From a virus, in the IMG/VR virus record IMGVR_UViG_3300048597_000116, positions 1 to 48,751 of that record: a stretch of DNA of 48,751 nucleotides. One strand, written 5' to 3'. Below the pieces are notes generated by a model. That model did no database searches. It saw only the letters and a list, made by a program, of their open reading frames with translations, and had not been told where the DNA came from. Positions 20,302-47,996 of this stretch are shown here, one piece after another. Made by a program: the position numbers and the translations under genes. How positions within the stretch are numbered: the stretch's first letter is position 1; the number at the start of each line of letters is the position of its first letter.

Positions 20302-20988
20302 TCATGTTGGGCTTGGAGTAACAAGTTGCTGCAAGAATGTCATTCCCCACGCGGTTTCCTCATCGGATCCCGAGATGGTAATCGAACAAGGATCCGTCTC
20401 ATTAATTTTTTGCAAATGGATTCTTAGATCAAAATCATGTCCTTCGGATTTATAGGCATCCACATCGCAAGAAAATGGGATGAAAGTCGACCCGACTTGT
20501 GGTGTGGCTTGAGCCACCGTGAACCAAGGCTCATCATTGCGCCATATTTCAATTTGTATCTTGGCCACGTTGACCGGATCTTTAACGGTTATGGTGCCGT
20601 TTGCGTTCCATACACCGTCAATTGGTGGGAAAAATTTAGAGCTGCTTAAATCAAAATCTCCTATTAAATCCCAAAGCTTCCTTATTGCAATTATTATTTC
20701 GGGATCATCTGTATTTATAGATTGATCGTTATTTTCAAGATCTAAAGCAAAAGAGCTTCTAAAATTTTCATCAGATTTTAAAAAGCTAATAGCTTTTTCA
20801 GGGCTTGCTAGTGGCGATGCATTAGCATAGCCAATATCTATAAATCCACTGTCAATTGCTTGGATGAAATCCTCATCTAATTTTAGTGCAAACTTAACAA
20901 GATCATCTAATTCATACCATGTGTCTGCTGTAAATTCCCTACCTTGATAAGATCTTGTTATTAGTTTTGACTGAGCCCAAACTTTCAT
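20302..20988 (-). CDS. Putative virion structural protein
   Basis: 228 residues, acidic, rich in Asp and Ser. The first ~95 residues look helical (YELDDLVKFALKLDEDFIQ; PEKAISFLKSDENFR), the rest beta (NGTITVKDPVNVAKIQIEIW; DLRIHLQKINET). It contains an Ig-like cadence near residues 125-200 that could be a decoration domain. It is separated from the next gene by 33 bases and from the preceding gene by 14. Unrecognised; the place in the operon suggests a head or adaptor component. Confidence 0.55.
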   Translation of the reverse strand: MKVWAQSKLITRSYQGREFTADTWYELDDLVKFALKLDEDFIQAIDSGFIDIGYANASPLASPEKAISFLKSDENFRSSFALDLENNDQSINTDDPEIIIAIRKLWDLIGDFDLSSSKFFPPIDGVWNANGTITVKDPVNVAKIQIEIWRNDEPWFTVAQATPQVGSTFIPFSCDVDAYKSEGHDFDLRIHLQKINETDPCSITISGSDEETAWGMTFLQQLVTPSPT

Positions 20989-30484: not shown

Positions 30485-30937
30485 ATGATTTGCTTTTTCG
30501 ATAAGGTTCGAGACAAGGTAACCGGGTTTGAAGGGGTCGTGACCGCAATCCACGATCCCATGACATCCGCTTATCAATATGGATTGCAACCACCGGTCAA
30601 GCCGGATGGCAACCTACCCGAGATCGTAACGTTCGATGCGGATGCTTTTGAGATCTTGGAAAAGAAAAATCAGGATCAACGCGTTCCATTCGAAAATGCA
30701 CTATACAATTACCGCGATCAGGTCAAATGCATCATCACTGGTTTCCAAGGCCAAGTCGTTTCAAGAACCGAGTTCTTAAATGGATGCATCCAATACCGCG
30801 TTCAAGGTCCTTTAAAAAAGGATGGAACCATCCCAAGCCCTGAGCGGTTCGCTGAACGCCAATTGATTTTAGTTAAGCCAGCACCTAAAAAAGCCGTGGT
30901 TAAATCCGGCGGTCCCATTATGAGAGGTCCTTTGTAA
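30485..30937 (+). CDS. Protein with two tandem beta-barrel (KOW/SH3-like) repeats
   Basis: 150 residues with an internal duplication. DKVRDKVTGFEGVVTA and a D-G-x-x-P-E near residue 50 are echoed by RDQVKCIITGFQGQVV and D-G-x-I-P-S near residue 118. Each half therefore repeats a V-x-G-F-x-G-x-V core like a small beta barrel. It opens the plus-strand operon containing the ParB-like and methylase genes. The start ATG is preceded by AAGGA at 5 bases; the earlier ATG at 30464 lacks a site. Its stop overlaps the next start (TAATG). DNA or protein binding is plausible; no enzyme motif. Confidence 0.65.
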   Translation: MICFFDKVRDKVTGFEGVVTAIHDPMTSAYQYGLQPPVKPDGNLPEIVTFDADAFEILEKKNQDQRVPFENALYNYRDQVKCIITGFQGQVVSRTEFLNGCIQYRVQGPLKKDGTIPSPERFAERQLILVKPAPKKAVVKSGGPIMRGPL

Positions 30938-31488
30938 TGAAAATAAATATGATCCCCACAGCTGATATCAAGCCCTATGAAAAGAATCCGCGCATCAATG
31001 CTGAGGCGGTCCCTCAGGTGGTCAAGTCCATCAAAGAGTTTGGTTTCCAGCAACCCCTGGTGGTTGACAAGAATATGGTGCTGATCGTCGGGCATACCCG
31101 CCTTTTGGCGGCAAAAGAGCTAGGGCTCACCGAGGTTCCCGTGGTGATTGCGGATCTCACGGATGCCAAGGCCAAAGCCTATAGGCTGATGGATAACCGG
31201 ACCCATGAGCGGTCGACGTGGGACGATACTCTTTTGATCCAAGAGGTCATGGAACTAGGGGATTTCTATACGCCTGAGTTTTTAGATTTTGACCATCTGG
31301 ATTTCCCAAAAGAGGATGAGCAACCCCAAGGCGATCCCGATGAGGTCCCAGATGAGGTGCCAGCGATTACCAAGCCTGGCGACCTATATTTGCTGGATCC
31401 GTATTATGAATGCTCAGTTTGCAAGAAAATCTATGCCTATGAAATCGGCAAGGACCTAAAGGAGTGTACTTGTGGCGTTGCAGCTTAA
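30937..31488 (+). CDS. ParB N-terminal-domain protein with C-terminal zinc ribbon
   Basis: 183 residues. Residues 1-85 are a ParB/sulfiredoxin-type nuclease domain (IKPYEKNPRINAEAVPQVV; then GHTRLLAAKELGLTEVPVVI). The tail from about 155 (CSVCKKIYAYEIG and CTCG) has a C-x2-C ... C-x-C zinc-ribbon pattern. In many phages this domain is fused to the DNA methylase that follows, joined by the K-P-G-D-L-Y-x-L motif that also occurs here at about residue 146. So this gene looks like a split or domain-inserted version of that fusion. It overlaps the methylase start by 17 bases. Confidence 0.8.
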   Translation: MKINMIPTADIKPYEKNPRINAEAVPQVVKSIKEFGFQQPLVVDKNMVLIVGHTRLLAAKELGLTEVPVVIADLTDAKAKAYRLMDNRTHERSTWDDTLLIQEVMELGDFYTPEFLDFDHLDFPKEDEQPQGDPDEVPDEVPAITKPGDLYLLDPYYECSVCKKIYAYEIGKDLKECTCGVAA

Positions 31489-32227
31489 GGGTCGGCATAG
31501 AGTTTTGTGCGGGGATTCAACCTCGTTGAGCGAGGTCGAGAGTCTCATGGATGGGGATAAGGCGGATCTTTGGATAACCGATCCGCCATATGGCGTTTCA
31601 TATGCTGATAAAAATGAATTTCTCAATGCGCTTGGTAACGGAGTTCGCCTTACCAAGCGCATTGAGAATGATCATATGTCAATCGAAGACATGGCGATTT
31701 TTTGGGAAAAAATAGCTTTGAATGCCCACTTCGCGACATCTGAAAAATCCGCCTATTATTGGTTTGCATGTCAAGGCGGTGATCAGATGATGATGATGAT
31801 GATGATGATGAGCATATCTCGTGCCAAATGGAAGGTTCGTCATGAATTAATTTGGGTAAAAAATAACCATGTCTTAGGTCGATGTGACTACTCTTATAAA
31901 CACGAGCCAATTCTTTACGGCTGGAAAAAAGATGGAACGCATAAATTTTATGGCGGATTTCAAACATCAGTCTTAGAGTTTGATAAACCGACATCATCTA
32001 AGCTTCATCCAACTATGAAACCAGTTGAGCTTATAGAAAAGTTAGTCACAAATTCGAGCATAGAAAATCAATTAATATTTGAAACTTTTTTAGGCTCCGG
32101 CTCAACCCTCATAGCTTGCGAAAAAACCGGGCGACGATGTTTTGGAATGGAAATCGATCCTCATTATGTCGATGTGATCATCGAGCGATATAAGAAATTC
32201 TGCGGAAAAGAGGTGATCAAATGCTAG
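31472..32227 (+). CDS. DNA methyltransferase (N6-A/N4-C type), ParB-linked
   Basis: 251 residues, beta-class amino-methyltransferase. Motif IV TDPPYG lies near residue 37 and precedes motif I-like FETFLGSGSTLIACE near residue 209, with a central WVKNNHVLGRCDYSYKHEPILYGWKK read in pieces. Starts with GTG after AAAGGAG at 7 bases. Residues 106-113 are eight consecutive methionines encoded by an (ATG)8 tract. Modification may protect phage DNA from host restriction. It overlaps the second methylase by 7 bases. Target sequence unknown; GATC is a common motif in this genome but that is not proof. Confidence 0.85.
   Translation: MALQLKGRHRVLCGDSTSLSEVESLMDGDKADLWITDPPYGVSYADKNEFLNALGNGVRLTKRIENDHMSIEDMAIFWEKIALNAHFATSEKSAYYWFACQGGDQMMMMMMMMSISRAKWKVRHELIWVKNNHVLGRCDYSYKHEPILYGWKKDGTHKFYGGFQTSVLEFDKPTSSKLHPTMKPVELIEKLVTNSSIENQLIFETFLGSGSTLIACEKTGRRCFGMEIDPHYVDVIIERYKKFCGKEVIKC
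31787..31810 (+). repeat. (ATG)8 trinucleotide tract in the methylase gene
   Basis: Eight ATG codons in a row encode a Met-8 run just before the S-I-S-R-A-K-W segment. Length changes would be in frame and would not switch the gene off but could tune a loop between the catalytic motifs. Confidence 0.7.
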
Positions 32228-32910
32228 TCCTCAAGTCGAGGCATAAGATCATTTGCGGATCCTTTTTCGATTTCAAGCCCAATGGCATCGATGCGGTCGT
32301 TGCGGATCCGCCCTATGGATGCAATGAGGTCACAAATCGAGCCACGAACAAGCGAGGCAAATTAGCTAAGAGCCAGGATTTTAAACCCGTGGCTGGCGAC
32401 GATTCGAACGAAACCGCCAGATCAGCTTTTGCCTATCTAGCTGGCGTTAAAGAGCAGGTCTGGTTCGGTGCCAACTTTTACCCGGTTCCGCCAAGCCCTA
32501 GCTGGATCGTATGGGATAAGCGAGGCGAGGTTGCATCGGATGATAACGGGGATTGCGAGCTTGCATGGTCGAACCTTGGCGGACCGATCCGGCAATTCAC
32601 GCATCTTTGGAAGGGTTGCATCAAAAAGAGCGAGCATGGGGAAAAGAAAATCCATCCCACGCAAAAACCCGTGGCTTTATATAGCTGGCTATTTGAAAGG
32701 ATCGAGGGGATTGAGGTTTTAGATCCATTTTTGGGGTCGGGATCATCCTTGATCGCCGCTCATCTGGCTGGGAAAAACATGGTGGGAATCGAGATCGAGC
32801 CGGAATACGTGGATCTAGTCCTTGCTAGGTTTCAAAGAGTATGTAAAGCCACCGTCCTTAAGTTTCCGTCTCTTGAGCTTTTTAGCCTGAACCGCCCTGA
32901 GAGCGATTGA
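32221..32910 (+). CDS. Second DNA methyltransferase (amino-MTase)
   Basis: 229 residues. Motif IV ADPPYG near residue 28 and the later DPFLGSGSSLIAAHLAG near residue 166 mark the beta-class order. The middle (WIVWDKRGEVASDDNGDCELAW) is the family's variable region, and HPTQKPVALY near 145 is the conserved block before motif I. It overlaps the first methylase by 7 bases, so the pair is co-translated. Its 3' end overlaps the convergent minus-strand gene by 96 bases. It may have a different target than the first enzyme. No restriction endonuclease is encoded beside them, so both look solitary. Confidence 0.85.
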   Translation: MLVLKSRHKIICGSFFDFKPNGIDAVVADPPYGCNEVTNRATNKRGKLAKSQDFKPVAGDDSNETARSAFAYLAGVKEQVWFGANFYPVPPSPSWIVWDKRGEVASDDNGDCELAWSNLGGPIRQFTHLWKGCIKKSEHGEKKIHPTQKPVALYSWLFERIEGIEVLDPFLGSGSSLIAAHLAGKNMVGIEIEPEYVDLVLARFQRVCKATVLKFPSLELFSLNRPESD

Positions 32911-38535: not shown

Positions 38536-40971
38536 TCATACAAGTTCCAGTTTAATTGCCTTAAAAACATTGCCACCTCGACCGCCGGATCCAATCGTCG
38601 AACGTCTTGCGTTAGGTAATCTTATCAAAGAGCGCGACCATTGGGATGCCCACCTGGTCTTGCTATAGATCTTTTCAAGCTCAGCATGAGCATTCGAAAT
38701 CCACAGCATCTTTTGTTTTAACACGATCCCATAGTTCTTTAAACCCTCGATTTCGAACTCGGTCACATAAGTCTGAGACCCCAAGATCCTTTCAATCGTG
38801 GTTTCGCATAGGTCGCCATTTGATTTGCGAAAAGACAATTTCCAGGTTAGCAAATGCTGTAAACATTCTTGCTCATCCGTCAACTTGGAATCCTCAATTT
38901 CATATTTAAGATCGAGTTCAGAAATGAGGGCCATAGCCTCGGATTCGCTGATAGGGCGGTCATGCTCAAGGGACCAGAATCCAGCCAAGAGGGTCCCAAC
39001 TTGCTGGCCATAGCGTTGGCTCACCCGGCCAGCGAGCGCGGTTCCTAGGATCCGCTGAGAGGTCCTGATCACGTTCACAAGGCGGGTTCCCCTCGCAAAG
39101 AGCGCGTCACCATAATCTGTATCGATTGTGGCCATCATCTTTTCCACGGCTTTCCACCGCACGATATCGTTGCCATGCGGTTTCAACTCAAGGACCGAGA
39201 ACCTGGACCGATCCGCATCGTTATCCAAGTTGACGCGGACGCTTGAGACCAGGGCGGGAAAGGCAAGCTCGAACTCAACGGCATTGCCGTTGGCGGATCC
39301 TTTAACAATCTTGCCTTGAGACGCGCTCCAGGACACCCTCAGGAGCTCCACAAGATTTTGGACCCTAGCCTTGGATAGATCCCCGGTGGTTTCAAACTCA
39401 TCAAAGATCACCGGCAGGCTGGATGATTTTATCGTCTGGCGGATCCCCGCCTCGGTCGAGGATCCGTGGAGATGGATTTTCCCCTTGGCGGATCCTAGAG
39501 CCGGTGCGATGAGGTTATTCATCACGGTTGACTTGCCAGTCCCGGATCCGCCGGTCAACCAAATGTGAGGGCGGATATCCAGGGCTCCCGCGATCCGGGC
39601 AATGGCGAGCCATCCGGCCAAAAGGTAACCCGACTTGGGATCAACCCAAGAGAGGGCTAGGCAGCAATCAATGAGGGCCTTGCCGCATTTGAGCGGTTCA
39701 GCCATAGGCGGAATACGGTTTCTTGTCTGGACGTAAATATACCAGCTTTTTGCCCGCGAGAGCCCTATCTCACGGTTGTCCATAATCAGGCTATGTCCGG
39801 TATTGATCACGATCCGTCCCTCATCGAGCCAAACCCCGGTTCCCCTCACGCGGTTGGAATCGAAGGGCCCTACAGCTCGACCCATTTGGACCAGGGCATC
39901 CGTGGCGGCAGTCCAGTCCACGCCCTTTTCATTCTGATACCGAGCCGCCCAATACTCACCAGGAGCCAGCTCAAAAAGTTGATGCTTGGCAAACGATGTA
40001 ATTCGAACGATATCTTTGCTTTTGATTTGGTAAAAAAAGTATACGGATTCGTCATAGCCCAAAGGCAAGAACCCGACCTCAGGATCCCTCTCACATTCAA
40101 AGAGAGCCTTAACCGCATCGATCCCTTTTTGGAGCTCCAGGTCGTTAAAGTCGGTTCCCTCGGTTGATTCAAACTCAGGAAACACCAAAGCGCCATGGGA
40201 TAAGAGGGACGCTTTACCCGCCTTATCCCTTCCGGTATTCGGTTCTTTTTGGCGATCATCATCACCACAAATTGTGATTTCAAGATCAGGATATTTTTCA
40301 TGCAGCAACTTGGCAACCTTAACCAAGTTACCGGCATCGATTGCAACGATCACGGTTTTTCCGGTTGCCTTAAAAAGCGTGACGCCGGTTGCAAATCCCT
40401 CACATATCAAAACATCAAGATGTATTTCCGGTCCAATGCGATGAAAGTTGCAATCAACTTTTGCGCCCGTGTTAAACCTCTTAGTTCCATCCGGCCAGAT
40501 GTATTGCACCGACCATAGTTTTCCACTAATATCCCGTAATGGAACCACTAGCCTTTCCTCAAAGATCTTTGCTCCGTAAAGGGCATCGATTTTTTTTCGG
40601 CTCATGTATTCCGTCTCACCATATTCGAGAGACTTAGCCCAAATGATTTCTGCCTTCTCACTCGCCTTGATGTTTCTCTCGATCCTATCCTGATCTAACT
40701 TTTTTTGAGCTGCCCGACTTTGGGCTTTGATTGCATCAAGATCAATCTTGCTCAATCCTTGCGGTTTGTATTCGTGCTTTTCACGGGTTCGCCAATCACC
40801 AAAAGTTGCATATTGATAAGTTTTGCCGCTAGAAACCGCATGATTCTGGAACCCCACAAACCAAGCGTTATCGCGTCCACCATTGCGCCCAAATCTTATC
40901 AACTCACCATCAAGCCTGATTTCAGGCAATGCGAAGCCATGGCTTGCCAAGGCAGCTACCAATTCATCCAT
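38536..40971 (-). CDS. Toprim primase fused to P-loop helicase/ATPase
   Basis: 811 residues. The N-terminal ~100 carry an RNA-polymerase-like start (ALPEIRLDGELIRFGRNGG). A Toprim domain follows: E191 in VLICEGFATGV, a mid-strand IVAIDAGNLVKV, and D237/D239 in ITICGDDD. A P-loop GGSGTGKST begins near residue 474, with a Walker B-like VIFDEFETTG about 45 residues on. Such fusions prime and unwind during phage replication. The last ~80 residues are basic (SKTRWASQWSRSLIRL). Its start at 40971 is close to the nuclease stop. The origin candidate lies directly after its 3' end. Confidence 0.85.
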   Translation of the reverse strand: MDELVAALASHGFALPEIRLDGELIRFGRNGGRDNAWFVGFQNHAVSSGKTYQYATFGDWRTREKHEYKPQGLSKIDLDAIKAQSRAAQKKLDQDRIERNIKASEKAEIIWAKSLEYGETEYMSRKKIDALYGAKIFEERLVVPLRDISGKLWSVQYIWPDGTKRFNTGAKVDCNFHRIGPEIHLDVLICEGFATGVTLFKATGKTVIVAIDAGNLVKVAKLLHEKYPDLEITICGDDDRQKEPNTGRDKAGKASLLSHGALVFPEFESTEGTDFNDLELQKGIDAVKALFECERDPEVGFLPLGYDESVYFFYQIKSKDIVRITSFAKHQLFELAPGEYWAARYQNEKGVDWTAATDALVQMGRAVGPFDSNRVRGTGVWLDEGRIVINTGHSLIMDNREIGLSRAKSWYIYVQTRNRIPPMAEPLKCGKALIDCCLALSWVDPKSGYLLAGWLAIARIAGALDIRPHIWLTGGSGTGKSTVMNNLIAPALGSAKGKIHLHGSSTEAGIRQTIKSSSLPVIFDEFETTGDLSKARVQNLVELLRVSWSASQGKIVKGSANGNAVEFELAFPALVSSVRVNLDNDADRSRFSVLELKPHGNDIVRWKAVEKMMATIDTDYGDALFARGTRLVNVIRTSQRILGTALAGRVSQRYGQQVGTLLAGFWSLEHDRPISESEAMALISELDLKYEIEDSKLTDEQECLQHLLTWKLSFRKSNGDLCETTIERILGSQTYVTEFEIEGLKNYGIVLKQKMLWISNAHAELEKIYSKTRWASQWSRSLIRLPNARRSTIGSGGRGGNVFKAIKLELV

Positions 40972-40988: not shown

Positions 40989-41420
40989 TTAGTCGGATTT
41001 AAAAGAAATTGTAGCGGGGTCGTAAACCGACTTAACCGACCCACCATCGCGAATGGCTGCTACAATTTTCAAACACTCTATAGCGTCCTCAGATGATCGC
41101 GCAACACAATAGATCCCGCCCATTTTTTTTATCATGGCCTCGAATCTAACTTGACCTTCGGACTGAGTTGCCTTGCCGGTTTTTACCTCTATTTCCACGC
41201 GAACACCATACGTTGTGATTCCAGTTATATCAGCGCATCCCACGAGCCCATACTTGATCAGCCGGTCACCACGATAAGCCGCGCCGGTCGGCTGTTCCCA
41301 AAACCGCCCAAGGTTAAGTCGATTCAAATCCAATAGAATCTGGCGAACTAGATTGTCGTGACGCCGCGTCAATTGCGCTCTTGATAGTGTCCCATTCCCG
41401 CTTTGCATGAGTTGCACCAA
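40989..41420 (-). CDS. VRR-NUC / PD-(D/E)xK nuclease
   Basis: 143 residues. The core KYGLVGCADITGITTYGVRV then EIEVKTGKATQSEGQVRFEA and IYCVARSSEDAIE has the VRR-NUC order: G-x-x-D, then E-x-K (in VEIEVKTG) and a Q motif. These nucleases cut branched or flap DNA. The frame starts inside the helicase end, so the first ~35 codons overlap it by 107 bases; the domain begins near residue 20 and an internal TTG with AAGAG before it is an alternative start. A partner of the helicase in resolving replication intermediates is plausible. Confidence 0.75.
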   Translation of the reverse strand: MVQLMQSGNGTLSRAQLTRRHDNLVRQILLDLNRLNLGRFWEQPTGAAYRGDRLIKYGLVGCADITGITTYGVRVEIEVKTGKATQSEGQVRFEAMIKKMGGIYCVARSSEDAIECLKIVAAIRDGGSVKSVYDPATISFKSD

Positions 41421-44400
41421 ATTCCGTTTTTATCCGATGATAGACCCAACCCGGTTGGTATCCAAAATTGATCGCACGATTGATAAGTGATTTCACTTTT
41501 GACTTTACACGTTGTGCATTCAAGATTTCAACGTCTTTTATCTCAACCAGGTCAATATCGGTGCGGTGGATTGGTGCCTCGCGCTCTTTTTTGGGATTCA
41601 CAAAGCCGCATTGGGGACATTCATCAGCGGGTTTTTCATAGACATAATAGCATTGTTTGCAAGTCTCATATTGGATGAGGTCCTCGACCTTTTCCTTTTT
41701 GCCGGATCCGTCAAGATCGCATTCCTTTTCCATCTCGATGAACCCATGGCGGACCACGTTCTTGCCGTGGTCGAGGACAATGAAATTTGATTTTCCTGGA
41801 TAAATTCTAGTTGCTCTGCCTAGTTGCTGAATCATTAAGTTATAGCTAGCGGTTGGCCTGGCCATAATTACGCATGAAACATAGGGCATATCAACCCCGG
41901 TGCAAAGGATGCCCACGTTTGAGACAATCTTTACAACGCCGGTTTCTAGATCTTTAAGAGCCTTTTGGCGTTCATCCCAAGAGTTCTTTGCCTCGATGTG
42001 CACCGCTGGAATCCCTGCCGCAATGAATTGATCCACCATGCCAAGTGAGTTGGCCACGGATGTGGCAAAGCATATGGTCGGGCGGTTTTCCCCTTTTTCC
42101 AGCCAGGTCTTAACGATATCGCCGACGATCTTTGCCTCACCCATAATGCCGTCAATTTGATTGGTATAGAAATCCCCGGTCTTTTTGTCGATCTTGAGCT
42201 TTTCAAAATCCGTTTCGGATGGCATAGAAAAATATTTTGGCGGGACTAAATAGTTTTGCTTGATGAGATCTGAAATGGTGATCGGATAGACCACCTCATC
42301 AGCAACGTGTCTCAGCCCTTGGGGAACGTGAGGCGTGGCGGTTACTGGCAAGAAAAAGGTTTCAGGCGGATATTGCTCGATCAGCCAACGAAAGGATGGT
42401 GAGGCTGCATAATGACAGTTTCCAATTGCAACTGCCATTCCGCTTCTACGAACGATAATGTTTCCTTTAGGGACGGTGACGCAATAAACGTAACCTGAAT
42501 ATTTAGATTCCTCTCTTTTTATCTGTTGAAATGTGCATGTGCTTGCGGCTTTCCTAACAAATAAACGATGCGCCGTACTAAACGATTCACTTCTGTTATC
42601 GACTTGGGTCGTGATGTTTGAAGAGTATCCAGCCAATGTCGCTACAATTTGATAAAAATCAGCGTTACTTTTAATTACGCTTGAATAGTAATAGGTAATA
42701 TCGGATATTCGGCTACCATCCCAATTAACCATGTATTCAATAATTGCCCGACACTTTGAAACAGACAGAGATTTTATGTCAAAAACTTGATCTATGTATT
42801 TAGTTTTATAGGAGCATCCAACTGAAAATCGTCTTTTTTTAGGATGGGATGATTTTATTTCTCTAAATTCAAAGTTTCCTTCATTCATGAGATCGATAAA
42901 CATATCTATTTTCCGCTGTTTTGTAAAAGTAAAATGGGCACGTCCAACCGATTGATCGTGCCCATCGGCTTGAAATGCAATGGCCAGTTTTTCTTTTGGA
43001 GACAAAATTTCGTCGCTGCCAACCGCTATTCCGGATTTAAATATAGACTTATAAGCGCCCTGTTTTAAATCCTTGGCCTTAATCTTTTGTACTTTTCCTC
43101 CAGAAATAATTACCATTTCATGGTTTTCGGTGACGGTAACATCTATTTTTTTATCGCTTTTAAAAGTAATCATGTTATGGTTCTCAACTAATTTTTTTAC
43201 ATGCCTGATTGGCGTGCAAAAGCTAATTTCTTTTGTGTTTTGATCAAACTGGGCAATCAACTCATTGCCAGATAAATTGTCAAATCTAATGAATCCTTTT
43301 TCAGTCATTATCTCCATATCAGGCGTAAAACATTCATCGATCACCACAAGTTGCGCCTCGGGAACCAATGCCCTGGCTCTTAGCGTGTCTATCGAGCAAA
43401 CTTGGATATTTTCATGGGGTCGGCGGTTCCAGTGACCGGCCATCAAAACGCCGTGCGGAACCTTTTCCCTAAAGAGCCGTTGAGATGCCTGATCAACTAA
43501 CTGTTTACCGCGCACGACCATAATGGCTTTTTTTTTGCGCTCATGGACGCCCTTTAGGACCTCGGAAAAGATCACGGTATTATGGGAAACCGTGCCATCA
43601 TGCAGCAAAAAGTACGGATCTTGCTTGAGAGTAAAACCAAAATAGTCACCGGGTCCAAGCGGCTTGACGGAAAACTGGCTAAATTGATCCCAAATCCTCA
43701 CGGGCGTGATCTTTAGATCCGTGCGGCGGATTGGTAACTCCCATAGCTCGCCCGATATACTTGCATATTTGATATTACTCATTTCATCAAATTGAAACCC
43801 TAAACTAAGAGCTATTTTTTTAATAGCCGCTTTTATATAATCATTTTTAAATTTTAATAATATATCGCGGTTTTTAAGGACCCCGGTGCCATCTATAAAG
43901 CCGCTTAGAAACTTGGCCTTAATAGCCTCGCGAGCAATGATAAAATCCGCCTTTGGTGCGGATCCTCTTAACGAGCTTAAAGAGTCATAAATTTGTGTAT
44001 CGGGTTTAATAATAAGGCCATCCATACATCCTTTCATTTGGTTCGATAAATGATCTCTTAATTGCGCTGCCGGATGAGTAAATTCCATTCTGTCATGATC
44101 CGCCTGAGCAAGGAAAAATCCAGCGAGCCACGGATCTATCAGGGGATCATAGCGCCATTCATGATCCCATTTAAAACGCATGATATAGAAATAGCTTTTG
44201 GATCGCTCATTGAGCGCCAAAAATTCTTTAACCGACATCACAAAAACCTTTTTATGTGATGAATGCCAAAGCACCAACTGATGGTTGAGGTTGCATTTAA
44301 AGGACGCGCCTTTTTTGGGGACGATCTCAAACATGTGATCGATGCCCTGAGTGATTGCGACCACGGTTCTTGGTTTGGAATCGGGTCCCAATAGCCGAGC

Positions 44401-44583
44401 GCCTGGCTTAATATCCTCAACAGCAATCGGATTAGGTCCTTTATAGGTTAGGATCATAGTCCCTGGTGCGTGGCATTTCCCACCGCCAGTCGCGAGATGC
44501 AACAGGACTTTCCGGCGTCCGGCGGCATAGTGAGCGCGGATCTGATCAAGGGCATCTTGCTGATATGGTCTAAGAATCGTCAT
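41314..44583 (-). CDS. SF2 (DEAD/H-like) helicase interrupted by two inteins
   Basis: 1,089 residues before splicing; about 485 remain after removal of both inteins. The extein motif I is L-A-T-G-G-G-K|T (intein between K36 and T336) and motif II is V-V-I-D-E|C-H (intein between E417 and C723). Then FLPVTATP, the helicase C-domain, and the QQLGRATRIYPGK arginine-finger motif. A CxxC...CxxC zinc element (CKQCYYVYEKPADECPQCG) precedes the C-terminal helical end. The helicase is therefore an enzyme that must splice twice to work. It likely acts in replication or recombination with the nuclease encoded next. Start ATG overlaps a 53-residue gene by 14 bases. Confidence 0.92.
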   Translation of the reverse strand: MTILRPYQQDALDQIRAHYAAGRRKVLLHLATGGGKCHAPGTMILTYKGPNPIAVEDIKPGARLLGPDSKPRTVVAITQGIDHMFEIVPKKGASFKCNLNHQLVLWHSSHKKVFVMSVKEFLALNERSKSYFYIMRFKWDHEWRYDPLIDPWLAGFFLAQADHDRMEFTHPAAQLRDHLSNQMKGCMDGLIIKPDTQIYDSLSSLRGSAPKADFIIAREAIKAKFLSGFIDGTGVLKNRDILLKFKNDYIKAAIKKIALSLGFQFDEMSNIKYASISGELWELPIRRTDLKITPVRIWDQFSQFSVKPLGPGDYFGFTLKQDPYFLLHDGTVSHNTVIFSEVLKGVHERKKKAIMVVRGKQLVDQASQRLFREKVPHGVLMAGHWNRRPHENIQVCSIDTLRARALVPEAQLVVIDECFTPDMEIMTEKGFIRFDNLSGNELIAQFDQNTKEISFCTPIRHVKKLVENHNMITFKSDKKIDVTVTENHEMVIISGGKVQKIKAKDLKQGAYKSIFKSGIAVGSDEILSPKEKLAIAFQADGHDQSVGRAHFTFTKQRKIDMFIDLMNEGNFEFREIKSSHPKKRRFSVGCSYKTKYIDQVFDIKSLSVSKCRAIIEYMVNWDGSRISDITYYYSSVIKSNADFYQIVATLAGYSSNITTQVDNRSESFSTAHRLFVRKAASTCTFQQIKREESKYSGYVYCVTVPKGNIIVRRSGMAVAIGNCHYAASPSFRWLIEQYPPETFFLPVTATPHVPQGLRHVADEVVYPITISDLIKQNYLVPPKYFSMPSETDFEKLKIDKKTGDFYTNQIDGIMGEAKIVGDIVKTWLEKGENRPTICFATSVANSLGMVDQFIAAGIPAVHIEAKNSWDERQKALKDLETGVVKIVSNVGILCTGVDMPYVSCVIMARPTASYNLMIQQLGRATRIYPGKSNFIVLDHGKNVVRHGFIEMEKECDLDGSGKKEKVEDLIQYETCKQCYYVYEKPADECPQCGFVNPKKEREAPIHRTDIDLVEIKDVEILNAQRVKSKVKSLINRAINFGYQPGWVYHRIKTEFGATHAKREWDTIKSAIDAASRQSSSPDSIGFEST
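42418..43332 (-). other. Intein 2, in helicase motif II (DECH)
   Basis: Residues 418-722 (305 aa). Begins with C418 (CFTPDMEIMT; block A), has a T-x-x-H-like block B (VTVTENHEMVI) near 482-492, and ends with the block F/G pattern VYCVTVPKGNIIVRRSG then AIGN|C. The penultimate residue is Gly rather than His, seen in some active inteins. The +1 extein residue is Cys723. A LAGLIDADG-like endonuclease is indicated by KLAIAFQADGHDQ near 532-544 and MVNWDGSRIS near 618-627. Splicing residues (Cys start, Asn end, Cys +1) are intact. Confidence 0.92.
43579..44475 (-). other. Intein 1, in helicase Walker A (motif I)
   Basis: Residues 37-335 (299 aa). Starts with C37 (CHAPGTMILTYKG; block A), block B near CNLNHQLVL (residues 97-105) and ends GFTLKQDPYFLLHDGTVSHN with penultimate H334 and N335, followed by +1 Thr336. 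The homing endonuclease is LAGLIDADG type: DPWLAGFFLAQADH near 150 and FLSGFIDGTGVL near 225. The catalytic splice residues are intact. Insertion directly after the Walker A lysine splits the P-loop, so splicing is essential. Confidence 0.95.
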
Positions 44584-45270: not shown

Positions 45271-45448
45271 CTTTTGCGATCCTTTTTGTATTCATTTCGT
45301 TCCAGGTAAATAGGGCAACCAATTTTTGGATTACCCATTCTTTAAAAGCCGCCTCTTTGTCTTCCTTCATAACCATGGTATAGGCTTCGTATTTGCGCCA
45401 TTCGCTAGTTATTTCCTTTTCCCATTTTAAAAAGAGTTCATCCGTCAA
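45260..45448 (-). CDS. Small hypothetical protein (TTG start)
   Basis: 62 residues of acidic and aromatic helix (ELFLKWEKEITSEWRKYEAY; AAFKEWVIQKLVALFTWNE). The start was moved to the TTG that lies seven bases after AAGGAG, which is inside the upstream gene's stop region; the longer frame starts at another TTG. It overlaps the SSB-like gene by 11 bases. Unrecognised; it may tie SSB and the annealing ATPase together. Confidence 0.5.
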   Translation of the reverse strand: MTDELFLKWEKEITSEWRKYEAYTMVMKEDKEAAFKEWVIQKLVALFTWNEMNTKRIAKDGN

Positions 45449-46352
45449 TGGTTGGCTCCTTAATATCAAGCCGCTCTTTTAACTTGGCCTCAATCTTCAA
45501 TAGTTGAGGCAAATAATCTTGAGCCTTGCCCACGGTTTCTATAACCAGCTTGCGGAACGCATCATCAAATTGCTCGGACTTTAATAGATCATCAATCCGG
45601 TTTCTTGCCGATTGCGCGTTATCGTTTCCGATCGCCGCGACATAGGCATCCCAACTAAGATCGATACACTCGGGCAATCCGAGGCGGTTCTTGGCATCGT
45701 ATCCAGGGCGTCCCTCGGTCCAAATTTTCCTAGCGCCTGAGCCAAATGCCTTAAGCTCTTTGCCTTCGGTTTTTGCAAAAACCTCGAAATTTGCGAACAA
45801 TACCGAGTCAACCCATTCCCTAAATTTAGGTGCGGATTTTTTATGGAGCTTTAGCTGGAACTTATCATAGGTGATTTGGTTGGCCGCATCACTATGCTGA
45901 GTGAGTTCCGAGTGAGCGATCAAGATCACGTTCATTTGGCGATCAATCCGCAATCGGTTTATGTGCTTGATGAACGCTTCCCACCGCACTGCCGCTTCGA
46001 CGTAACCCTTGCCATACCCGCCAGCGGCTAACTCTATCGACTTGGCACCATGCTCTTTACAAATTTCCGCGTATAATAAAGGTTCAAGCCAATCTAATGA
46101 ATCGATAACAAGAGTTTTATAATCATGCTTTTCTTTATATAGCTCTTGGATCGCCATGCCCACATCAGGCCAACTTTCAGGACATGGAAACCGCGCCACA
46201 TCCAGATGATCCGTTCCATCCTCGGTTCCTAGGAATATGGGCTTTGGCGCACCCGCGGCAAAACTCGATTTCCCGATACCATCAACTCCATAGATCAAAA
46301 GCAAATGCGGCTTTTTGATCTTGCCAGTTGTAACTCTGTCAAGCATTCCCAT
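45438..46352 (-). CDS. Sak4-like RecA-fold recombination ATPase (AAA_24 type)
   Basis: 304 residues. Walker A GVDGIGKS (residues 22-29) and Walker B LVID (81-84, then SLDWLE) are in a RecA-like NTPase frame. Sequence around NVILIAHSELTQHSD (about residue 140) resembles sensor motifs of Sak4/RecA-like recombinases. In phages such proteins promote single-strand annealing together with an exonuclease and SSB, both present here (YqaJ-type and SSB-like). It overlaps the HTH gene upstream by 14 bases. The Sak4 label is inferred from length and context; some relatives are only called AAA ATPases. Confidence 0.75.
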   Translation of the reverse strand: MGMLDRVTTGKIKKPHLLLIYGVDGIGKSSFAAGAPKPIFLGTEDGTDHLDVARFPCPESWPDVGMAIQELYKEKHDYKTLVIDSLDWLEPLLYAEICKEHGAKSIELAAGGYGKGYVEAAVRWEAFIKHINRLRIDRQMNVILIAHSELTQHSDAANQITYDKFQLKLHKKSAPKFREWVDSVLFANFEVFAKTEGKELKAFGSGARKIWTEGRPGYDAKNRLGLPECIDLSWDAYVAAIGNDNAQSARNRIDDLLKSEQFDDAFRKLVIETVGKAQDYLPQLLKIEAKLKERLDIKEPTIDG

Positions 46353-46634: not shown

Positions 46635-46856
46635 ATGTGGTCTAATTTTTTAAGGATGTTTAAATCATCCAAGATGGTTTTACGAGTTAGATCATGTCCA
46701 TTTTGCAATTCATCAAAATTGATTTTAAGGAAACTAGAGGACACCGGTTTAACATTTGTAAATTGCGCCTCGTGCTGTGCAAGAGGTCCGCTCGCGGATG
46801 GTGAGCTTGAATCGATAAAACGCTGGAATAGGATGGCAACTAAAGATGAACCGTGA
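46635..46856 (+). CDS. Lar-like zinc protein (restriction alleviation family)
   Basis: 73 residues. C21/C24 (SCPFCNSSKLI), C44/C47 or C48 (NCASCCARGP) and the end ADGELESIKRWNRMA match the Lar pattern C-P-F-C-G ... C-x-x-C-x-A-x-G-P ... A-I-x-x-W-N. Lar proteins reduce type I restriction. It begins at an ATG with GAGGG seven bases before it and overlaps the exonuclease by 11 bases. It would be the first early gene of this plus-strand operon. The N-terminal ~15 residues are basic. Confidence 0.8.
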   Translation: MWSNFLRMFKSSKMVLRVRSCPFCNSSKLILRKLEDTGLTFVNCASCCARGPLADGELESIKRWNRMATKDEP

Positions 46857-47442
46857 TGAATGGCATGATTGGCGAGGCAAGGGATTAGGCGCATCGGATG
46901 CACCAATCGTGCTAGGCGTGAGTCCGTGGAAAACAAGGCAAGAATTATGGCTAGAAAAAACAGGCCAAGTTGCAAAAGAATATAAAACCAATTGGGCAAT
47001 CGACCGAGGAAACCGCCTTGAGCCGTTGGCCAGGGCTCATTATGAATTGATGGTGGGCTTTGATGCACCGGCTCTTATCGTCGAGCATCCTAAATATCCA
47101 TTTATAAGAGCCTCGCTTGATGGCTATTCCAAATCAAATAGCCGCGTCCTTGAGATCAAATGCCCTGGAAAGGCTGATCATGAAAACGCGCTCAAGGGAA
47201 AAGTCCCTAAAAAATATTATCCCCAGATCCAGCACCAACTTTTTGTTACTGGCGCAAAGAGCGCGGATTATTTTAGTTTCGACGGACACAATGGATGCAT
47301 CGTGACGGTCCCGCCCGATCGGGCTTTTATCGTTCACATGGTCAATCTATTGATTGAGTTTTGGGATTGCGTCCTGAAAAAAGAAAAACCGGCTGATAAG
47401 ATCGAGCCGGTATCATTCAATGCGGATTTAGTCGCTATCTGA
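46846..47442 (+). CDS. YqaJ/lambda-type exonuclease
   Basis: 198 residues, a PD-(D/E)xK 5'-3' exonuclease of the YqaJ family. GLGASDAPIVLGVSPWKT is the family start; RGNRLEPLAR near 54-63; D92 in ASLDGYS, then E103-x-K105 in LEIKCPG give the catalytic triad; PQIQHQLFVTGA near 126 is also typical. Such enzymes feed single strands to an annealing protein (here the Sak4-like ATPase and SSB). Plus strand, with the Lar-like gene, divergent from the replication operon. Confidence 0.93.
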   Translation: MNRDEWHDWRGKGLGASDAPIVLGVSPWKTRQELWLEKTGQVAKEYKTNWAIDRGNRLEPLARAHYELMVGFDAPALIVEHPKYPFIRASLDGYSKSNSRVLEIKCPGKADHENALKGKVPKKYYPQIQHQLFVTGAKSADYFSFDGHNGCIVTVPPDRAFIVHMVNLLIEFWDCVLKKEKPADKIEPVSFNADLVAI

Positions 47443-47513: not shown

Positions 47514-47996
47514 CTATTTTCTGAATATAACCACCCAATAGTTGCCCGCCCTATAGCCACCGATAAATCTTTGTTTAGGATCATAGATAATTTGAGCATG
47601 GCTGGGGTCGTTTGTCCAATCGGTCACCACGGATGCCGCATCGGTATGGCCGCAAGCAATCACCTCGCCGCTGGCCACGCCACCGCACCTTTTGGCCCGT
47701 TGCCAAAATTGGGAAAGGTCGCTCCCTGTATGAGAGCAACGCTTGGTTTTATTAATATCGATGGCGTGAATCCTTGCGGCGCAAGCAAGCGCGGGGTCAT
47801 TGGCTAAAGCAAATAATCCGCGTTTTGACCTTTCATAATTGATGATTCCCAGCACCTCAGCGGATCCGCCAAGATCATCACCGGATCCCGGACACGGCTC
47901 GGCGGGGATCGGCGCGGGATCTGGCATAGGATTAGGGCTTTGTGAGTTTGCCTTGCACGAAACTAGGGCCAAAAGGAATATACAAATCCACTGCAT
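47514..47996 (-). CDS. CAP (SCP/CRISP) superfamily lipoprotein
   Basis: 160 residues. A Sec signal ends with lipobox LALVSC (lipid Cys at 14), followed by a proline-rich linker. Residues ~45-160 are a CAP domain: VLGIINYERSKRGLFALAND, then AARIHAIDINKTKRCSHTG, GEVIACGHTDAASVVTDW, PSHAQIIYD and YWVVIFRK. CAP folds with a conserved His/Glu pair bind divalent metals or lipids; H77 in RIHAIDI, H91 in CSHTG, and H139 in PSHAQ are candidates. A lipid-anchored CAP protein is unusual in phages. It is close to the lysis genes and could act on the envelope or block later phages. GAGGTG lies before the ATG. Confidence 0.8.
   Translation of the reverse strand: MQWICIFLLALVSCKANSQSPNPMPDPAPIPAEPCPGSGDDLGGSAEVLGIINYERSKRGLFALANDPALACAARIHAIDINKTKRCSHTGSDLSQFWQRAKRCGGVASGEVIACGHTDAASVVTDWTNDPSHAQIIYDPKQRFIGGYRAGNYWVVIFRK

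Follow-up and report, generated by a model that had tools for sequence, protein, structure and literature searches.

How does a phage helicase come to be interrupted twice, once at each of its two ATP-site motifs, and what becomes of its product? The question is raised by a gene on the minus strand (positions 41314-44583) of IMG/VR virus record IMGVR_UViG_3300048597_000116, the whole of which (48,751 nucleotides) is the window analysed here. The gene encodes a precursor of 1089 amino acids made up of a superfamily 2 (SF2) helicase (phrog_16, RadD-like) and two in-frame inteins. We consider it very probable that this phage recombination/repair helicase hosts two co-resident, independently acquired inteins, an immobilised one that still splices in the P-loop and a younger, probably still mobile one in motif II, and that both excise.

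The helicase is divided into three pieces, all on the minus strand. The N-extein (44476-44583, 36 residues) ends on the P-loop lysine of LATGGGK; the middle extein (43333-43578, 82 residues) runs from the Walker A threonine, which is the +1 residue of intein 1, to the Asp-Glu of motif II; and the C-extein (41314-42417, 367 residues plus the stop codon) begins with CHYA and contains motifs III-VI and a zinc-ribbon-like CxxC...CxxC segment. Removal of residues 37-335 and 418-722 leaves a continuous protein of 485 residues, which matches the phrog_16 DNA helicase family at 5.6e-73 and contains Walker A, the DEx(H) motif II, an SAT-like motif III and motif VI, all invariant in the homologue alignment. 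Its match to the RadD model (2.4e-28) falls far under the equivalog cut-off, and consequently we call the extein RadD-like only. Intein-free homologues spanning both sites are 41-44% identical to the extein; the proteins of Bdellovibrio phage phi1422 (L012, 42% identity, 482 amino acids) and of IMG/VR sequence L001 align across both sites without interruption. A preliminary sequence-only reading of this locus had proposed that a single SF2 helicase is interrupted by inteins in Walker A and in motif II, with boundaries K36↓T336 and E417↓C723 (arrows mark insertion points) and lengths of 299, 305 and 485 residues for the inteins and the mature helicase. Protein families, structural models, splicing residues and intein-free homologues bear out this architecture, and the boundaries and lengths proved exact. 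Two of the checks it had suggested also gave positive answers: intein profiles matched both inserts (Hom_end_hint for the first, Intein_splicing and TIGR01445 for the second), and the alignment of the extein to intein-free phage helicases runs straight through both sites.

Intein 1 (43579-44475, minus strand, residues 37-335, 299 amino acids) occupies site a, GGGK↓T, with the junctions ATGGGK↓CHAPG...TVSHN↓TVIF. Pfam Hom_end_hint covers its whole length (1e-12), and its sequence matches in the PDB are the Prp8 and PI-SceI inteins. AlphaFold models of both inteins were computed using the window and IMG/VR sequences as input. The model of intein 1 (mean predicted local distance difference test score, pLDDT, 92.7) has the Hint fold, with Foldseek matches to PI-SceI (1.8e-19) and to the Prp8 intein (TMt score 0.91). 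The residues expected of a class 1 intein are all present, namely C1, N62xxH65 in block B, H298, N299 and T+1. An IMG/VR scan with the intein 1 family, using intein-internal peptides only, confirmed 440 contigs; the best 80 of these 440 were kept (L024-L103), yielding 73 non-redundant members in which the block-B Asn and His are invariant (73/73).

The endonuclease of intein 1 has fared differently from its splicing domain. A LAGLIDADG domain is recognisable by fold, yet both catalytic aspartates are substituted, by Gln in block C (LAGFFLAQAD) and by Thr in block E (FLSGFIDGTG), at positions where 66 and 70, respectively, of the 73 family members keep Asp. Identity to the family is 0.187 against 0.352 in the endonuclease domain (z = -6.2) and 0.461 against 0.558 in the Hint domain (z = -3.2); 11 of 21 conserved positions are lost in the former and 6 of 37 in the latter, with Cys1, the block-B His, His298 and Asn299 all retained. 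Judged from these substitutions, the endonuclease is almost certainly dead. Since loss is concentrated in the endonuclease domain while the splicing residues remain, intein 1 is probably immobile, yet still under selection for splicing. Its branch in the family tree is very long (4.19 against a median of 0.56), and its position in that tree was therefore not used.

Intein 2 (42418-43332, minus strand, residues 418-722, 305 amino acids) occupies site b, DE↓CH, with the junctions VVIDE↓CFTPD...AIGN↓CHYA. The Pfam Intein_splicing match (8e-7) is under Pfam's curated cut-off, and a match to TIGR01445 (intein_Nterm) begins at the N-junction. The AlphaFold model (mean pLDDT 92.5) retrieves the TliVMA, PI-PfuI and PI-SceI inteins in Foldseek at 1e-13. 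C1, a TxxH block B (T68ENH71), N305 and C+1 are present. The penultimate residue is Gly304 instead of the usual His, as in all 19 aligned relatives; because a phage intein with a penultimate Gly splices fully (PMC5050341), this does not disqualify intein 2. Its LAGLIDADG domain keeps both catalytic aspartates, D123 (AFQADG) and D205 (NWDG), in the alignment of these 19 relatives. The sequence-only reading had assigned a LAGLIDADG endonuclease to each insert, which, judged by the catalytic residues, holds for intein 2 and, for intein 1, as regards the fold only. A class 3 mechanism was considered for intein 2, given that its best PDB sequence match, the AceL NrdHF intein, is of class 3. Inteins of this class have no nucleophile at position 1 and carry a WCT triplet (PMC7891396). 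Intein 2 has Cys1 and lacks the W and T of the triplet (Met at block-B +2, Cys284 in block F, Ile at G:5), which rules class 3 out; the Hint domains of both inteins are class-1-like.

The two inteins belong to different families: they have no BLAST similarity to one another, and a profile comparison gives a probability of 15%. Their independent acquisition, claimed by the sequence-only reading, is thus upheld, albeit on other grounds than those first offered. The start Cys, terminal Asn and +1 nucleophile are indeed found in both, and the penultimate residues do differ (His and Gly), but Gly is a trait of the intein 2 family and does not serve as an argument. The different +1 residues are no argument either, as the +1 residue belongs to the extein and is fixed by the motif (GKT, DECH). 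Guanine-plus-cytosine (GC) content, 47.9% in the extein, drops to 42.8% for the first intein and to 36.1% for the second, and no other 900-bp stretch in the window is as low as the latter. This low GC is consistent with a later arrival of intein 2, without proving it. With both catalytic aspartates kept and a foreign base composition, intein 2 is probably the younger element and would still be mobile. Homing of two inteins at once into an empty MCM allele is inefficient, making sequential arrival probable in that system (PMC10643990); for the same reason, the most plausible history here is also sequential, in which the P-loop intein would have come first.

We propose that the 1089-residue precursor is translated with both inserts and that its ATPase activity would be blocked before splicing. 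Each Hint domain would then excise itself through an acyl shift at Cys1, transfer to Thr+1 or Cys+1 and cyclisation of the terminal Asn, and splicing of both would yield a helicase of 485 residues with intact GGGKT and DECH boxes. Intein 1 would persist as an immobilised resident whose homing endonuclease has decayed and whose splicing residues are kept. This locus offers a natural case of two homing inteins in one protein, at its two ATP-site motifs, one of them decayed and the other apparently intact.

Both sites are occupied in other phages as well. Site a (K↓T) is filled in Klebsiella JD001, Pseudomonas Touem01, Vibrio 1.009.O and Escherichia Bas95, while in PJ16 and YX3973 the insertion has moved to TG↓SGK. 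The inteins of JD001, Touem01 and 1.009.O share the family, the K↓T site and the helicase family with intein 1; unlike the window, these phages have a single intein, whose endonuclease motifs are intact (LGDG/DSDG or equivalent). K389 has site b filled only, as do K391 and 1.027.O, with a different insert. In these latter two Vibrio phages (L126 and L127), the site-b intein contains a long, charged, low-complexity insert without recognisable LAGLIDADG motifs, possibly an endonuclease of another type or a remnant. Two Vibrio phages have both sites filled: 13VV501A (OQ622096), with mini-inteins of 147 and 143 amino acids, and PS65A.1 (MW824434), with a full-length site-a intein of 349 amino acids. 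They resemble the window in helicase family, in insertion points (GK↓T and DE↓CH) and in the family of the site-a intein. They differ in their site-b mini-intein, which is from another family and ends in VVVHN instead of GN; moreover, both inteins of 13VV501A lack an endonuclease, whereas the pair of endonuclease motifs is intact in the site-a intein of PS65A.1. Because the site-b inteins of the Vibrio phages and of the window are of different families, double occupancy of sites a and b arose at least twice.

Empty alleles exist for both sites. Xanthomonas phage FoX3 bears 942 bp inserted in site b at GGGATGAA↓TGTCAC. FoX2, with an extein 99% identical to that of FoX3, has an empty site b in which the codons are rejoined exactly at DE↓CH, and the flanks of the insert are identical at 150/150 and 146/150 bases. 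For site a, PS65A.1 (filled) and K389 (empty) form such a pair. Public phages thus supply single-, double- and empty-site alleles of this gene family, on which the routes to a doubly occupied gene can be tested.

The arrangement is consequently not unique, and the window represents a new instance of a known one. The sequence-only reading had regarded two inteins in one essential helicase as rare; the doubly occupied 13VV501A and PS65A.1 and the published multi-intein helicases (PMC6195587, PMC10643990) weaken this, and its views on both rarity and conditional activation were overstated. The DnaB protein of Mycobacterium smegmatis also carries two inteins (DnaBi1 and DnaBi2) in one helicase, a P-loop intein without endonuclease activity and another with an endonuclease (PMC6195587). 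It differs in being a cellular DnaB-family replicative helicase, in its second site, motif H4 (DNA-binding loop), and in its P-loop intein being of class 3. The mycobacteriophage inteins TerL1-a (P-loop K↓T) and TerL1-e (Walker B) lie, as here, in equivalent ATPase motifs of a phage protein, a terminase instead of a helicase (PMC5050341). The haloarchaeal MCM-a and MCM-d inteins also share one helicase, albeit an archaeal MCM in which both endonucleases are active (PMC10643990).

Each intein of the window belongs to a lineage that keeps to a single nucleotide-binding motif, the P-loop for intein 1 and motif II for intein 2, across different ATPases. Members of the intein 1 family are located in the P-loop in 68 of 73 cases, 50 at K↓T/S and 18 at TG↓sGK. 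Their hosts switch between SF2 helicases and other ATPases, and the tree shows 13 such changes, of which starred branches force at least 5. This P-loop bias across many different ATPases suggests that the family spreads, guided by the motif, from one gene to another that is not its orthologue. That inteins favour P-loops is already known (PMC5050341, PMC5874633), while no description of motif-II intein lineages was found in the literature searched, which was limited in extent. The nearest relatives of intein 2, seven inteins (L105, L106/L107, L129-L132), are 35-46% identical to it, end in GN↓C and lie at DE↓C(H/Q) of SF2 motif II, in hosts from different SF2 subfamilies (UvsW-like, SNF2-like, phrog_16). 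A branch with 94/92 support (long sequences included) separates them from NAMPT and other sites; this GN-ending lineage is related to NAMPT and DNA-polymerase inteins. Unlike in the window, the P-loops of L105, L106, L129 and L130 are intein-free, and no P-loop motif was matched by pattern in L131 and L132. Conversely, no second intein at site b was found in the SF2 hosts among the best 80 of 440 intein 1 relatives. Site b requires a Cys at the third position of motif II, and SF2 helicases bearing intein 1 relatives have DECH in about one third of cases and DEAH, DEGH or DEAQ otherwise. Two such motif-following lineages make motif-guided retargeting of homing endonucleases testable. In viral contig L079, two separate ATPase genes each contain an intein of the P-loop family (L079:658-1671 and L079:4001-5044). 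Two inteins also seem to interrupt a phage family-A DNA polymerase (L133, open reading frame from 2426), in which the second Hint/LAGLIDADG-like insert ends LTGN↓SAYGRG.

Some of the evidence weighs against the history proposed above. The nearest relatives are only about 46% (intein 2) and 35% (intein 1) identical, and neither IMG/VR scans with each intein as a single protein nor a contig scan with the extein found close ones; with relatives this distant, this phage itself offers no recent empty-site pair. Base composition is a weak guide to age, as a gene elsewhere in the window (20302-20988, minus strand) also has a low GC content (38.9%). The long branch of intein 1 and its six lost Hint positions would even fit inteins of which one or both no longer splice, leaving the helicase dead or replaced by another phage activity. 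We find this improbable, given that the core splicing residues are all present, the reading frame is open over 1089 codons, the helicase motifs are intact and decay is focused on the endonuclease domain, as expected under continued selection for splicing. That the record is a metagenomic one, in which GC falls within intein 2, could instead point to an assembly artefact or a chimera of reads from different viruses; such an origin is scarcely conceivable, however, since both inserts join the extein in frame and to the exact codon, at sites occupied in independent isolates, and two codon-exact joins at homologous sites are not expected of a chimera.

A regulatory role, as in the conditional activation put forward by the sequence-only reading, is a further alternative. 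The P-loop intein would have been domesticated, losing its endonuclease and being kept for slow, rate-limiting splicing that responds to a signal (e.g., redox) and so times helicase activity during infection, the motif-II intein being a fast-splicing mobile parasite. Precedent comes from other systems only, such as the M. smegmatis DnaB inteins, for which conditional splicing was demonstrated (PMC6195587), and the loss of the endonuclease with retention of the Hint domain is compatible with domestication. Hint retention, however, is needed equally to merely keep the helicase working. Furthermore, K389 and K391, close relatives of the double-intein phages, have no site-a intein, so that neither intein is a fixed regulator in the Vibrio phages, and for MCM inteins, which are frequently gained and lost, the same has been argued (PMC10643990). 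We accordingly hold a conditional switch to be unlikely, and favour two independently acquired inteins that simply excise.

The helicase is located in a replication and recombination module, as indicated by its neighbours. These encode an endonuclease or Holliday-junction-resolvase-like protein (40989-41420, minus strand; phrog_93 at 1e-8, phrog_5702 at 2e-7) and, by family matches, a TOPRIM primase-helicase (38536-40971, minus strand), a Sak4-like single-stranded DNA annealing protein (AAA_24; 45438-46352, minus strand) and a YqaJ/RecE-like exonuclease (46846-47442, plus strand). The terminase shares no more than 30% identity with those of known phages, and neither Rfam matches nor tRNA genes were found across the window. 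The low-GC gene at 20302-20988 lies inside the structural module and is possibly a recent acquisition. A ParB-like gene and, after it, two genes for N6/N4 DNA methylases (30937-32910, plus strand) are on the strand opposite to the structural genes. A gene for a CAP/SCP-domain protein (47514-47996, minus strand; PF00188, 1.3e-11), unusual in a phage, adjoins a transglycosylase-like gene and is perhaps related to lysis or to the envelope.

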